Positions 48,502-53,739 of a stretch of 64,000 nucleotides of DNA are shown one piece after another (position 1 is the first letter of the stretch; the number at the start of each line of letters is the position of its first letter). Made by a program: the position numbers and the translations under genes. The notes beneath the pieces were generated by a model that saw nothing but the letters and a program-made list of their open reading frames with translations, did no database searches and was not told the DNA's origin. The stretch comes from Bryobacterales bacterium (GTDB lineage: Bacteria; Acidobacteriota; Terriglobia; Bryobacterales; Bryobacteraceae): positions 1 to 64,000 of the forward strand of contig JADZAF010000249.1 of the NCBI GenBank assembly GCA_020852755.1. Reading direction: 5' to 3'.

Positions 48502-49965
48502 TCACGCGAATTTATAGGAAATTACTACCCGGGATTCGGTCCCTTTCGGCAAAGTTATGTAACCTGTCTCGCGGTCGATGCTTTTCCACGGCTTGCCGTC
48601 CACCCAGGCAGCCGCGATGCGAACGTCCGGCTGGTCGAACGGAACCACGACTCGCGGCCCTCCGCCGGCCAGGCGGAACGTAAGCTGCGGCTCATGCCCG
48701 GACGGCAGAGAGAGATAGAGGTAATTCACGAGAGCGTGCTCCATCTCATGATAGGAAGCGCGCCAGGCCGTGTCCCAGGCCTTGCGCCCCTCTCCGAGCG
48801 GCCTGCCGTCTCCGCCGATGCCCGTGAAGAATCCTCCCTGCTCCCGATCGGTAAAGCGGCTTACGAAGAAACGCTCCGACCGCCCGAAGTTGTCCAGGTA
48901 ACACTGCTCGCGGGTTCGCGCATAGAGACGCAGCTGCAGCATCGCGCCGTAGATTTGCGTCCACCACCACATCCCGTCTCCGCGCGACCGGGCGGTCGTC
49001 TCGAACCAGCCGCCCGATCCGGCGTCCCAGGCTTCGCGCTCGACCTGCCGGGCGAATTCGATCGCGGTCCGGGCGTACCGGCCGCCGGTTTGATCGGCCA
49101 GGCGGAGCAGCGCCAGCCCGGCCGTCAACTGCGCTCCGCCGGAGGCGGGACGGTCCGGCGCCGGATCCGTGCGCCGCCATTGGCGGTCGAAGGTGTTCTT
49201 GAAACCGTGGAACCAGCCCGCGCCGTCGCGCATCCGTTCCAGTGACAGGTCCATCAATTCGCGGGAGAACGCCAGGATCCGGGCATCCCGGGTGGCCAGG
49301 TACAGGTTCAGAAGAAGCGAGCCGGTGTAGCCGTAGTGGGCATGCTTGTTCTTGCCGTAGTCCGCCACCGCCAGGTCGCGCCTCAGCGTCTGTGCGTAGC
49401 CTCCAAATTCCCGGTCGCGTGCCCGTTCCCGATGGATCTCGACCGATTCGATCACCTTTTCCAGCACCCTGGCGCAGCCCGTGGTGAAGTAGTACATGGT
49501 CAACCCGACATTGGTGTAGAGCTGGCGGGATACGGTCTTGGCGCGGCTCAAGGGCTTCCCTTCCGGAGTCAGCAGATCATGCCAGCCGCCGTACTCCTTG
49601 TCCCAGGCGCGATCGAGCAGGTATTCGACGCCCTGTTTCGCGCAGGCCAGGTACTCTTCGCGGCCGGAGAGCAGGTAGGCGGCGCTGAAACCGTACACCT
49701 GGCGGCCGATCAAAAGCGGGACTTTGTATGCCGGAGGGATGGGCCGCCAGCGGCGGTCGAGGTTCGTGTGATAGGCGCCCTGGCCGGGATCGGGAGCATG
49801 CCGCAGCCAGAGCGGAGCCAGCTCTCTGACGCCCTGTGTCCGCCAGTATTCGCCTGCCGTCACCGGCAACTCCGGCGCCCGTTCGCGCCCCCAGGCCCGC
49901 ACTGCGGGCATCAAAGAAAGCATGCAGAAACGCCGCCTGGTCTGTCCTCCCGCTCCGACCCCCAT
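48502..49965 (-). CDS. Tat-exported N-acylglucosamine 2-epimerase (AGE) family protein
   Basis: A 487-residue (alpha/alpha)6-barrel protein. TRRRFCMLSL near residue 9 is a Tat-like motif. Barrel segments (VYGFSAAYLLSGREEYLACAKQGVEYLL, DKEYGGWHDLL, YTNVGLTMYYF, GSGGWFETT, WWWTQIYGAMLQLRLYARTRE) match AGE/cellobiose 2-epimerase-like proteins. The last about 80 residues form an extra beta-rich domain ending VVISYKFA. It would epimerise or isomerise a sugar. Start uncertain: ATG 49965 is chosen; TTG 49974 is possible and neither has a good ribosome site. Confidence 0.75.
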   Translation of the reverse strand: MGVGAGGQTRRRFCMLSLMPAVRAWGRERAPELPVTAGEYWRTQGVRELAPLWLRHAPDPGQGAYHTNLDRRWRPIPPAYKVPLLIGRQVYGFSAAYLLSGREEYLACAKQGVEYLLDRAWDKEYGGWHDLLTPEGKPLSRAKTVSRQLYTNVGLTMYYFTTGCARVLEKVIESVEIHRERARDREFGGYAQTLRRDLAVADYGKNKHAHYGYTGSLLLNLYLATRDARILAFSRELMDLSLERMRDGAGWFHGFKNTFDRQWRRTDPAPDRPASGGAQLTAGLALLRLADQTGGRYARTAIEFARQVEREAWDAGSGGWFETTARSRGDGMWWWTQIYGAMLQLRLYARTREQCYLDNFGRSERFFVSRFTDREQGGFFTGIGGDGRPLGEGRKAWDTAWRASYHEMEHALVNYLYLSLPSGHEPQLTFRLAGGGPRVVVPFDQPDVRIAAAWVDGKPWKSIDRETGYITLPKGTESRVVISYKFA

Positions 49966-50320
49966 TGAGGGCAAGTTACTCCACTCTTCGCAGCCGGGTC
50001 AACTTGCCGCCCGCGGAGGGCACAGACGTGGAGTTGTTCGAAATTCAGCGCCCCCTGGGCCTGCGGCCCAAGCCCTGGAGGGCAGTGCGACCGCTCCCTC
50101 CGGTGTGCACGGTCTTCCCGTTTCTGGACCGAATACGGGAACGGCAAAGGCCGGTGCCGCAAACCCGCTGGAGGCCCATCTTGACGCGGACCGGCGCTTC
50201 TCCCGACAATCGGGGAGCCGCATCGCTACGCTCCGATGCCTGTTCGCCTCCGCCCGGAAGGCTGTCCGGTTTCCCTCCGGAAGCGAGTTCGACCTCGGAA
50301 TCCGCAGCGGGAGACCGAAA
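49966..50320. other. 355-bp divergent intergenic region with promoter and repeat fragment
   Basis: No convincing gene. A 14-base exact match (CCGCTCCCTCCGGT, 50091-50104) to the arm of the 24.3-kb repeat is present. TTGACG (50180-50185) and GACAAT (50204-50209), 18 bases apart, may be the promoter of the membrane-protein gene at 50321, leaving a leader of about 105 bases. The rest shows nothing recognisable. Confidence 0.4.
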
Positions 50321-51877
50321 ATGAAAAGCGCCCGATCCCTCCTTCCCGTTGCCTTCCTGGCAGCCGGGGCCGTTGCCGCCTACTACGCCGTGACCCTCTG
50401 CGCCGCTGCCCTGCGCCCGTATGCCTGGGAGCAGGTCCGTGGGGAAATCCTGTCGGCCGAAAGCAGCGTAAGCCAGGCCGGCGGCGCCGGTCCGCCGTTC
50501 ACCTACAGGATCGCCTACCGCTATGCCTACAAGGGGCAGACGCACCGCTCCGAGGATTCGGGCGCCACCCGCGACTGGCTGGAGATCGCCGTCCGGCTGC
50601 GGAAGTACCCGGAGGGCGGGCAGGCGGCGGTCTATGTCGATCCGGGCGAGCCGGGGCGCAGCCGTCTCCAGCAGCCCGATCCGCGAATTCTCCTGTGGCT
50701 GCTCCTCCCCTTTGCGCTTTGGGCGGCCGCAGCCGGGTGCCGCGCCCCCCGGCACGCGGGACTCCTGCTCGCCTGGGGCAGCCTGGTGATCGGCGGCGGC
50801 ATCTTCTTCGCCCTGGTCCTGGAGCCCGCGATCCGCGCGTTGAGCGCCTCGCGCTGGCTCCCGGCGGTTTGCACGGTTGAGTTCAGCCGCATGAGCGCCT
50901 ATCCCTCCAGCGGCGGCGGGCAAGTCCAGGCCGGCGACGTGCTGTTTTCTCACCGCCTCAAGGGAGTCCGCTACCGGTCTTCGCGCTACAGCCTGGAGAG
51001 CCCGGATGCCAGAGACAGCGACGACGAGCAGGCGGTAGTGCAGGCGCTCCAGCCGGGTTCGCAGACCGCCTGCTATTACGATCCCCATCAGCCGGAGTGG
51101 GTCGTGATCGACCGCAGCTTCCCCGCCGCGCTCCTGCCAGGGCTGGCTCCGCTGTCCCTGTTCGTGATTGGAGCATGGGTCCTGTTGCGCCGCTTCCTGC
51201 GCCGGATGCGGACGGAATCTCCGCCCCTGGAGTGGCCGCCCGCAAGCCCTTCCTCCAGGCTGCTGGAGCCATCCGTGACCTCAGCCGGGATGTTCGCGGG
51301 TTGCCTTCTCGTGGCGGTCATCTGGAATGCCGTGGTGGCCTTCGCCGTGTCCAGGGTCGTCGCCTCGTGGAAAAGCGGCGATCCGGACCTCACCCTCGCC
51401 ATCCTGGTGGCCCTTTTCGGCGCCGTGGGCCTGGTGCTTGCAGCCGGAGTCCCATATTACCTGCTCGGCGTGTTCACCCCCCGGCCGCGCATCGTGCTGA
51501 CGCCGCCTGCCATCCGGTTAGGGGAATCGACCACCATGCAATGGCAGTTCACCGGCCGGGCCGGCAAGCTCCGCCGCGCGCGAATCTACATCGAGGGCAG
51601 CGAATGGGCTTTCTGGAAGGAAAAGAAGAACCGGCAATCTCACCGCAGGGAACTCTTCCGCCGGATTGAACTGCTGGACACGGGGGGGCCCGTTTTTCAG
51701 GGGATCGCCTCCATCCAGATCCCCGGCGACACCATGCCCACGTTCGAAGGGCGGAACTTCCGGATCGTCTGGGAACTCAAAGTCCACGGTGAGATCCCGT
51801 TTTGGACCGACGTCAACGAAACTCACCGGCTGGAGGTCCTGCCGGCCGGAGAAAACCGGGAGGAGCGGGAGCTGTGA
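50321..51877 (+). CDS. Membrane protein with two DUF3592 domains and a C-terminal arrestin-like domain
   Basis: A 518-residue protein. Two DUF3592-type modules are visible: the first with YRIAYRYAYKGQTHRSED and GGQAAVYVDPGEPGRSRL, the second with VLFSHRLKGVRYRSSRYS and GSQTACYYDPHQPEWVVID. Roughly six membrane helices flank or separate them. After the last helix, PRIVLTPPAIRLGESTTMQWQF to about residue 510 is an arrestin-like beta-sandwich. Role unknown. ATG 50321 follows GGGAGA. The next gene starts within its stop (GTGA), so both are translated together. Confidence 0.75.
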   Translation: MKSARSLLPVAFLAAGAVAAYYAVTLCAAALRPYAWEQVRGEILSAESSVSQAGGAGPPFTYRIAYRYAYKGQTHRSEDSGATRDWLEIAVRLRKYPEGGQAAVYVDPGEPGRSRLQQPDPRILLWLLLPFALWAAAAGCRAPRHAGLLLAWGSLVIGGGIFFALVLEPAIRALSASRWLPAVCTVEFSRMSAYPSSGGGQVQAGDVLFSHRLKGVRYRSSRYSLESPDARDSDDEQAVVQALQPGSQTACYYDPHQPEWVVIDRSFPAALLPGLAPLSLFVIGAWVLLRRFLRRMRTESPPLEWPPASPSSRLLEPSVTSAGMFAGCLLVAVIWNAVVAFAVSRVVASWKSGDPDLTLAILVALFGAVGLVLAAGVPYYLLGVFTPRPRIVLTPPAIRLGESTTMQWQFTGRAGKLRRARIYIEGSEWAFWKEKKNRQSHRRELFRRIELLDTGGPVFQGIASIQIPGDTMPTFEGRNFRIVWELKVHGEIPFWTDVNETHRLEVLPAGENREEREL

Positions 51878-52275
51878 TTCGCATTCAGTTCAGCGACGGC
51901 CGGAGGCAATTCCGGTCCCGGGAGCAGGTCAGCGGCATTGTGGAGTGGGACGGCGGCCGCCCGCCCGAACGGATCAAGGTCCGTCTCGTCTGGCTCACCG
52001 AGGGTGTCGCCACACCCGAACTCGAGGTGGTCGATGAGTGCGAAGTGAACGTCCTGGGAGTGTGGGGGCGCGCGGAATTCTCCTTCCTCCTCCCCGAGAC
52101 TCCCTACAGCTTTTCCGGGAAACTCGTCCGGCTGATCTGGGCGGTCGAAGCGTTCGCCGGCGAGGGAGCGGACTTTGTGAGGGAGGAGATCCTCGTCTCT
52201 CCCACCGGAAGGGAGATCAGGCTCTTCCCGGAGTCCTCCGTCCGCGGGGATCGGGACGACCGGGAACCGCTGTAG
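51874..52275 (+). CDS. Small arrestin-like beta-sandwich protein
   Basis: A 133-residue soluble protein starting at GTG 51874, overlapping the previous stop. IRIQFSDGRRQFRSREQVSGIVEWDGG and the later YSFSGKLVRLIWAVEAFA look like an arrestin/Spo0M-like N-terminal sandwich, and resemble the C-terminal domain of the preceding membrane protein. No signal peptide, so probably cytoplasmic and bound to the membrane partner (inference). Function unknown. Confidence 0.65.
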   Translation: MIRIQFSDGRRQFRSREQVSGIVEWDGGRPPERIKVRLVWLTEGVATPELEVVDECEVNVLGVWGRAEFSFLLPETPYSFSGKLVRLIWAVEAFAGEGADFVREEILVSPTGREIRLFPESSVRGDRDDREPL

Positions 52276-52341: not shown

Positions 52342-53739
52342 TCACACCCCTCCTCCCAGCACCTTGTACAGCGTCACCAGGTTGGCCAGGCGCGCGAGGC
52401 GAAGGTTGATGAGAACCTGCTGGGCGCCGTACAACGAACGCTGCGCCACCAGCACGCTCAGGTAGCTGTCCACCCCCGCCTTGTAGCGGGCGTCGGCAAG
52501 ACGGTAAGTGTCGTCCAGCGTCTTCACCAGCGCTTGTTGGGCCTCCTGCTGCTCCAGCAGCCTGGTTCGCAGGCTCAAAGAGTCGCTGACTTCCTGAAAG
52601 GCGGTTTGAATCGCTTTCTCGTATTCGGCCACGGCCATGTCCCGCTCCACCTGCGTGAGTTTCAGGTTGGCTCTGCGGGCGCCGGCATCGAAAATCGGAA
52701 GCCCCGCCTGCGGGGCAAAATTCCAGGTCCGGGAACCGGCCTTGAACAGTTCGGTCAGGTCGCCGCTCATCAAGCCGAGACCGGCGGTCAGCGAGATTCG
52801 CGGAAAGAAGAGCGCCCGGGCCGCGTCGATGTTGGCGTAGGCCGATCTCAACCGGTGCTCCGCGGCGAGAATGTCCGGCCGCCGCAGCAACACTTCGGAG
52901 GTAACGCCGGCGCTGATTTCCTTCAGCTGGCGATCCGTCCCCAACTCGGCGGGCAGCAGGTTGGCCGGAACCGTGGTTCCCGCCAGGAGGGTCAACGTGT
53001 TTTCGTCCAGCGCCACCCGGCCCGTGTACCGGGCGATATCCACGCGGGCCGCTTCCACCTGGCTCTGCGCCTGCCGCACCTCCAGGTCGGAAACGATACC
53101 CGCCTCCCGCGTCTTCAGAATCAGTTCGTAGGTAGCCTGCTGGGTCTCCAGCGTCTCCTCCGCCAGGCGCAGGTTGTCACGGTCGGCGGCCAGGGCGAGG
53201 TAGCTGTTGGCCACCGCCGCTACCAGCCCGATCTGCGCCGCGGAGCGCGCCTGCTCGCTCGCCAGGTACTGCTCCAAAACCGCGCTCTTCAAACTGCGGA
53301 TGCGTCCGAACAGATCGAGTTCCCAGGAGGCCACGCCCCCGCCCACGAGGTACTTTCCAATGGTCTCCGCCTCGCCCCCGCTCGTCATCGCGGCCGGCAT
53401 CCGGTAGGCATCTCCGCTCGCGGACGCGCTGACGGTCGGGAACTGCTCGGCGCGCTGGATGCGGTACAGGGCCTGGACCCGCTCGATGTTGAGCGCGGCC
53501 GCGCGCAGGTCGCGGTTGTTCCCGAGGGCCAGTTCGATCACCGATTGCAGCCGCTCGTCGGTGAAGAATTCCTGCCACTTCACGCCGGCCGCCTCGGGCG
53601 CCCCGGGGCTCGCGGCCGGACCGGCAGCGCTGGCCGGCCAGGCGCTGGGAACCGGCGGCTCGGGACGCTGGTACGCTCCCGGGCGCATGCAGCCGGTCAG
53701 AATGACGGCCAAACTCAACAGGAGAGGTTTGCGCGGCAT
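52342..53739 (-). CDS. Outer-membrane efflux lipoprotein, NodT/OprM type
   Basis: A 465-residue TolC-family protein. The lipobox LTGC puts Cys17 as the lipidated residue. Two repeats of the outer-membrane efflux domain are seen (LRAAALNIERVQALYRIQRAEQ and LRSAYANIDAARALFFPRISLTAGLG), each with long coiled helices. It forms the exit channel of the tripartite pump. It begins one base after the pump gene ends, so the three genes are one operon. Confidence 0.93.
   Translation of the reverse strand: MPRKPLLLSLAVILTGCMRPGAYQRPEPPVPSAWPASAAGPAASPGAPEAAGVKWQEFFTDERLQSVIELALGNNRDLRAAALNIERVQALYRIQRAEQFPTVSASASGDAYRMPAAMTSGGEAETIGKYLVGGGVASWELDLFGRIRSLKSAVLEQYLASEQARSAAQIGLVAAVANSYLALAADRDNLRLAEETLETQQATYELILKTREAGIVSDLEVRQAQSQVEAARVDIARYTGRVALDENTLTLLAGTTVPANLLPAELGTDRQLKEISAGVTSEVLLRRPDILAAEHRLRSAYANIDAARALFFPRISLTAGLGLMSGDLTELFKAGSRTWNFAPQAGLPIFDAGARRANLKLTQVERDMAVAEYEKAIQTAFQEVSDSLSLRTRLLEQQEAQQALVKTLDDTYRLADARYKAGVDSYLSVLVAQRSLYGAQQVLINLRLARLANLVTLYKVLGGGV

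Follow-up and report, generated by a model that had tools for sequence, protein, structure and literature searches.

Locus and gene layout

The window is the whole stretch of DNA analysed here, 64,000 nucleotides in length (positions 1 to 64,000 of the forward strand of contig JADZAF010000249.1, Bryobacterales bacterium, GCA_020852755.1). The genome it belongs to comprises 398 contigs, with a listed completeness of 100% and a contamination of 3.23%. Two genes, termed A and B here, form the locus of interest (Table 1). The stretch given for the pair in the original prediction (50321-52275) was recovered unchanged; both genes are on the + strand and have GTGA in common. Upstream of A one sigma-70-like site was found, compared with 0.1 expected in shuffles. 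According to the list of open reading frames the pair is flanked by a divergent gene (48502-49974) and a convergent gene (52342-53739). The distance from B to the convergent gene is 66 bases, hence there is no room for a third gene at this side. The G+C content of the pair (0.65-0.69) lies within the range of its flanks (0.61-0.69).

Table 1. Features of the A-B locus, in positions of the window.
Feature	Position	Strand	Description
Sigma-70-like promoter match 5' of gene A	50181..50210	+	Consensus match only, 9/12 bases
Gene A	50321..51877	+	518 aa; six-helix membrane protein with two DUF3592 domains and an arrestin-like tail predicted to be cytoplasmic
First DUF3592 domain	50435..50674	+	A residues 39-118, predicted extracytoplasmic; Pfam PF12158 and model
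Second DUF3592 domain	50858..51106	+	A residues 180-262, predicted extracytoplasmic; boundaries from model
Strand 313-315 and transmembrane hairpin TM5-TM6 (321-384)	51257..51472	+	Model
Arrestin C-lobe-like sandwich	51482..51832	+	A residues 388-504
C-lobe signature loop position	51614..51643	+	A residues 432-441; Y-R-R-G-T-x-T-x-T-D in most relatives, degenerate here
GTGA	51874..51877	+	B start codon overlaps A stop codon; 4 bases in common
Gene B	51874..52275	+	133 aa; free arrestin N-lobe-like sandwich (sequence profile, model)
N-lobe signature loop position	51997..52020	+	B residues 42-49; T-x-G-K-G-T/D-x-D in most relatives, degenerate here

Domains and topology of A

A was scanned with Pfam and modelled with AF2 (34 sequences, mean pLDDT 87.2, pTM 0.67). 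The scan found nothing but DUF3592 (PF12158), which matched in two stretches with E=2.5e-18 and 67 bits at a cut-off of 25.3. The two stretches and the two domains of the model bear out the two DUF3592 modules originally predicted for this protein. All 34 aligned A proteins scanned with Pfam likewise contain DUF3592. In the model A starts with a transmembrane helix (TM1, 2-35), followed by the first DUF3592 domain (37-106 in the model), two helices (TM2, 121-138; TM3, 143-176), the second DUF3592 domain, a single helix (TM4, 273-298), a helical pair (TM5, 321-351; TM6, 357-384) and finally the sandwich. Alignments of A to VPS26 structures start at residues 307-311 and thus upstream of the TM5-TM6 hairpin. 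Judged from the model, this hairpin is apparently inserted behind the first strand of the C-lobe.

Positively charged segments of membrane proteins tend to face the cytoplasm (positive-inside rule). Net charges were averaged over the 34 aligned A proteins, with fewer rows where a protein misses a segment. They amount to +3.4 for the N-terminus, +3.9 for loop 2-3 and +3.4 for linker 4-5, and to -1.1 and -1.8 for the two DUF3592 domains and -0.1 for loop 5-6. By the charge rule, the positive N-terminus, loop 2-3 and linker 4-5 predict a topology with outward DUF3592 domains and a cytoplasmic tail.

Two further observations concern the DUF3592 region. Pfam CaKB (calcium-activated potassium channel beta subunit) was matched by 5/34 A proteins (best 8.3e-5), and a Foldseek search with the window A model gave chains of Slo1-beta4 complexes for the DUF3592 region (50435-51106) with E values of 3e-5 to 8e-5. 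DUF3592 with its two helices may have the same TM-ectodomain-TM fold as the CaKB subunit. At one locus (L039, 7165-8922) A has no DUF3592 match but does have the tail, followed by B and by N, the third gene described below. The module may thus be built around its arrestin part.

The tail of A and B resemble the two lobes of an arrestin

B was modelled with AF2 from 36 sequences (pLDDT 91.9, pTM 0.83) as a seven-stranded beta-sandwich. The Foldseek list for A is headed by beta-arrestin 1, ARRDC3, VPS26C/VPS26 and Spo0M and contains some channel chains further down; the list for B is headed by ARRDC3, TXNIP, VPS26 and Spo0M. Structural re-alignment with VIA-align covered the first 1000 Foldseek chains, and families outside this list are not excluded. 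The tail of A aligned to VPS26B residues 160-297, i.e. the C-lobe, with Z 12.1 (131 aligned, 2.8 A). All 50 rows listed for it are arrestin-clan by title, including those of Rgp1, which we take to be a member of this clan. For B the best row is VPS26 with Z 12.8 (126 residues aligned over 13-282), and on the N-lobe of VPS26A (13-153) it reaches Z 12.7 (110 aligned, 2.6 A). These lobe matches are not exclusive: the tail of A also aligns to the N-lobe of ARRDC3 (Z 11.4) and B to arrestin C-lobes (up to 11.8), the other pairings scoring nearly equal because the two arrestin lobes resemble each other. Moreover, unrelated sandwiches come within about 1 Z of the best rows of B (glycoside hydrolase, Z 11.6; complement C3, Z 11.5).

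The relationship was also evaluated by sequence. A profile of B (36 proteins) matched 19 PDB sequences at E<=10, all of the arrestin clan. The best of them is VPS26B with a whole-sequence E=2.6e-5, and its best stretch, on the N-lobe, has E 0.0036. The A-tail profile matched 7 PDB sequences (best E 0.06), none of them an arrestin by name. Compared with each other, the B and A-tail profiles match with E 4.1e-5 (probability 70). Among 33 single A tails, Pfam Arrestin_C was matched by 2 (best 1.7e-4), Rgp1 by 3 (best 4.6e-4), Spo0M by 3 (best 0.0013) and Arrestin_N by 1 (0.011). Among 36 single B members Arrestin_N was matched by 3 (best 0.0019) and Arrestin_C by 1 (0.054), while Spo0M (PF07070) was matched by 0/36 at E<=0.1. 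For the window's own A, A tail and B no arrestin-clan Pfam match was obtained, B having nothing above a Pfam cut-off. The arrestin claim for the window proteins is hence one of fold and not of Pfam membership.

Modelled alone, A and B each give a beta-sandwich. The arrestin-like tail of A that had been predicted is confirmed by a confident sandwich with arrestin-clan structures as its best fold matches. The same holds for the free arrestin-like sandwich B, by its model, the fold search and an arrestin-only sequence profile. What the prediction had missed is that the tail of A and B look like the C- and the N-lobe of one arrestin.

Two single-chain relatives carry both lobes. In L040 the B profile matches residues 4-124 (E 4e-15) and the A-tail profile residues 237-362 (E 5e-14), with helices in between. 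This protein also exceeds the Pfam cut-off for Arrestin_N (27 vs 24.9 bits) and is the sole relative seen to pass an arrestin-clan cut-off. L106 is the second single chain with the B lobe followed by the A lobe. It is 41% identical to L040, which suggests helices between the lobes here as well. The Acidobacteriota genome with L040 (G127) contains a split A-B-N locus (L035) together with this single-chain form.

The A-B pair is conserved in several phyla

Of the 396 phylum genomes searched, 10 had a B match and 12 an A-tail match at E<=0.01. Strong matches of both fall in the same 9 genomes, the window's included, and A and B are adjacent in each. A search of 60 related genomes yielded DUF3592-level matches at most, and these in 5 only, so that within its family the pair seems to stand alone. 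With full-length A as a single query of genome contigs no relative was found. A scan of these contigs with the A-tail profile revealed 55 loci, mostly from metagenome assemblies, labelled Acidobacteria, Planctomycetota, Verrucomicrobia, Victivallis, Desulfobacteraceae, Sumerlaeota, Pseudomonadota, Bdellovibrionales and Omnitrophota, among others. Together with L035 and L037-L040 they make up a set of 60 loci, 57 of which have an A-tail match of 60 bits; such a match is absent from L101-L103. L017, L028/L041 (presumably an outer-membrane assembly protein), L029 and L030 gave weak matches and were dropped as unrelated. The window's A and B are themselves matched by the profiles of their relatives at E 4.4e-51 and 2.6e-34.

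B adjoins A in 51 of the 53 loci with room for it (46/48 in the scan loci alone) and is missing in L089 and L104. The neighbourhood search, a check proposed with the original prediction, thus shows a pair conserved across several phyla. The gap between both genes was measurable in 46 loci. Some overlap was seen in 33 of them and an exact 4-base overlap in 24, in line with the proposed translational coupling. None of the gene clusters other than A, B and N occurs in more than 5/56 loci (crude gene calls, BLASTP 1e-6). Since there are no recurrent neighbours, flanking genes were not used for inferring function.

In L037 A and B are fused in one frame. The same is seen twice in tandem in a Verrucomicrobiota assembly (L097, 2616-6080), where the two fusion genes are 57% identical and N is absent. 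Within these fusions the C-lobe comes first and the N-lobe second, opposite to the order in an arrestin.

These arrangements bear on whether A and B belong together at all. They might be two independent arrestin-like modules, the tail of A being that of a sensor with its own partner and B a soluble adaptor for something else, with the operon serving dosage. The reversed order in L037 and L097 fits this idea, docking of A and B being a proposal. Against it, fusions of A and B do exist, the single chains L040 and L106 run from N-lobe to C-lobe, the two genes co-occur almost throughout the loci with room, and their best matches are complementary halves of VPS26. We therefore regard independent modules as unlikely.

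A third gene, N, accompanies the pair in most relatives

The reading of the locus as a two-gene system proved incomplete, as it missed a small AAA-type ATPase gene (N) in most relatives. N lies beside the pair in 40/52 loci with room (35/47 in the scan loci alone) and is absent from the other 12/52. It is located 3' of the pair except in L040 and L106, where it is upstream. An alignment of 26 N proteins shows a P-loop protein of ~190-230 aa with N-P-F near the start; it also has a Walker A motif and, late in the sequence, an arginine that is invariant. N-P-F and the P-loop are shared with ExeA/GspA-like AAA ATPases, from which N differs by its size and by its position beside A-B. Pfam AAA_22 was matched by 25/26 N proteins at E<=0.01. 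Weak matches were obtained to NACHT (20/26, best 4.3e-5) and nSTAND_NTPase5 (17/26, best 1.7e-6), and in NCBIfam none of 3 N proteins reaches a cut-off among the matches listed. Searched against the PDB, the N profile gave 897 sequences at E<=1, and the 60 listed are P-loop proteins of many families.

In the window N was not found by profile search. In the window's genome no full-length match was obtained among the 150/189 candidates scored. The genome search gave 44 matches, mostly short and around the P-loop, the longest covering 34-137 of 202 positions. With the first N profile, the highest-scoring match of this genome was a 332-residue frame (E 7e-4), presumably an ExeA/GspA-like ATPase. 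On a rescan of four of the matched loci with an extended profile it was outscored by another frame, which we take to be an ABC ATPase.

N-less pairs are scattered on a tree of A tail and B, and parsimony requires 7 changes of the N state. In one of them (L087, 5858-7814, Rubritalea profundi SAORIC-165) what looks like the first DUF3592 segment of A has a frame of its own; this is perhaps a decaying N-less copy.

Alternatively, A, B and N might form a stand-alone defence or conflict cassette, in which B or A would be the sensor, N the motor and the membrane protein the effector. The spread over just 9/396 phylum genomes, the lack of recurrent neighbours and the weak NACHT and nSTAND_NTPase5 matches of N point in this direction, and one N weakly matches the defence protein mads_8 (4.8e-6). 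However, the weak PADLOC matches of the 3 N proteins, of which 4.8e-6 is the best, centre on the P-loop, and PADLOC gave no match at E<=1 for 4 A and 3 B proteins, the window's included. Moreover, a search of 72,556 plasmid and 50,697 phage records gave no match to the A tail of L055. A defence cassette is in our view highly improbable.

Signature loops in both lobes and their relation to N

Each lobe carries a signature loop (Table 1). With few exceptions, rows with N have the A-tail motif Y-x-x-G-T-x-T-x-T-D and the B motif T-x-G-K-G. In the window the A loop keeps 0/7 conserved positions, compared with 65% outside the loop, and the B loop 2/5, compared with 85% outside.

Both loops are intact in 37/39 rows with N versus 1/12 without (A loop, 38/39 versus 5/12; B loop, 38/39 versus 4/12). 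A scan of 87 conserved columns, 12 of them in the loops, for association with N ranked B K45, A T122 and A Y118 highest (numbering of the L050 slices), all of which are loop positions. Enrichment of loop columns gave hypergeometric p values of 0.002, 0.018, 0.001 and 0.004 for the top 3, 5, 8 and 10, respectively, for an idea that is post hoc, i.e. drawn from the same data that tested it. Once relatedness is taken into account, five independent contrasts with support remain, four of them in favour, none opposed and one neutral (p 0.125), and with only five of these the link between loops and N is unable to reach significance.

The conserved fraction of the A loop drops from 0.92 to 0.61 in N-less rows, that of the rest of the A tail from 0.88 to 0.80. 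For B the values are 0.98 to 0.83 in the loop and 0.88 to 0.72 in the rest. The loss in the B loop is no greater than in the rest of B, hence the B signal is essentially one lysine. Taken together, residues of the signature loops tend to be lost where N is absent, a tendency in the aligned sequences that is not significant with relatedness counted. In L039 the A loop is degenerate despite the presence of N.

The window copy could also be viewed as a relic that has been decaying since the scaffold lost its purpose with the ATPase gene. N was not found in the window, nor in full length among the candidates scored in its genome, and both loops are degenerate. Among other N-less loci, B is only 80 aa long in L087 and A is split over two frames in L075. 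On the other hand, the frames in the window are open over 518 and 133 codons with intact coupling, most conserved positions outside the loops are kept in both proteins, and N-less L062, L070, L074, L078, L085 and L095 retain full-length A and B matches. A mere relic is thus quite unlikely.

A proposed membrane-fixed, two-chain arrestin scaffold

On balance we favour a membrane-fixed arrestin scaffold of two chains with outward DUF3592 domains, which is normally worked by an ATPase and of which the window copy is an ATPase-free or decaying derivative. A would cross the membrane six times, exposing its two DUF3592 domains outside and holding in the cytoplasm a sandwich equivalent to the C-lobe of VPS26/arrestin. 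B would be the N-lobe, supplied in trans, and translational coupling would yield both lobes together. The tail of A and B may then dock edge to edge like the lobes of VPS26, giving a cup at the membrane to which a client protein or peptide would be recruited. Most relatives also have N in their operon, and it would act on this scaffold, possibly via one signature loop per lobe. It might respond to a signal sensed by the DUF3592 domains, loading or releasing B or its client. As the window copy is without N and both loops, it would work ATPase-free, as a static adaptor, or be in decay. The membrane scaffold suggested in the original prediction is compatible with this scheme.

A broader version is conceivable, which we put forward tentatively. 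Several phyla might possess a transmembrane arrestin machine with a receptor-borne C-lobe, an N-lobe in trans and an AAA-type ATPase gripping both loops, and some lineages, the window's among them, would have dropped motor and loops. If true, bacteria would thereby have an ATP-driven counterpart of the receptor-arrestin or retromer adaptors, with receptor and arrestin on one polypeptide.

Relation to known systems

Arrestins are scaffold proteins described chiefly in animals and yeast, and retromer is known from eukaryotes. The retromer subunit VPS26, of the arrestin clan, shows the same fold as our proteins, the N-lobe resembling B and the C-lobe the tail of A. Spo0M is bacterial, has an arrestin fold and was a Foldseek match for both A and B, with Pfam matches in some A tails as given above. 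In contrast to the A-B pair it is a single chain (5cl2, 246 residues), and no B member matched its Pfam family. To our knowledge, Spo0M has neither DUF3592 nor a membrane domain. The Pfam model of DUF3592 has 84 positions and spans the predicted outward domains only; hairpin, tail and partners lie outside it.

The arrestin fold of VPS26 is described in PMC2699828, where VPS26 forms a single chain of a trafficking coat; here there are two chains, one of them within a membrane protein with outward domains. The arrestin clan comprises Spo0M, arrestin and Vps26 according to PMC2515105. The mechanism of Spo0M is little known, as stated in its own study (PMC5325327). In the papers cited here, Spo0M is the sole bacterial arrestin-clan family named.

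No description of bacterial, split or membrane-anchored arrestins was found in the literature searched (preprints and most subscription papers lie outside it), and NCBIfam gave no match for 4 A and 3 B proteins. Judging by title and abstract, the related papers that came up dealt with Spo0M, VPS26 and eukaryotic arrestins or mentioned the terms together by chance. The earlier statement that no two-gene system of this form has been described therefore stands within this literature, neither NCBIfam nor PADLOC having a match for A or B. The folds are known; the arrangement, an arrestin-clan scaffold split over two chains of which one is built into the membrane, is the part for which no description was found. 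A conserved operon with a membrane-tied arrestin, split lobes and usually an ATPase would offer a concrete system for arrestin roles outside eukaryotes. Moreover, the module gives a first context to DUF3592, which occurs in a single paper of the literature searched.

A complete A-B-N set is located in Planctomycetales bacterium ZRK34 (L057, 5858-8556), whose record is titled complete genome (CP050848.1). With all three genes in the record of a complete chromosome, the system may be testable there.
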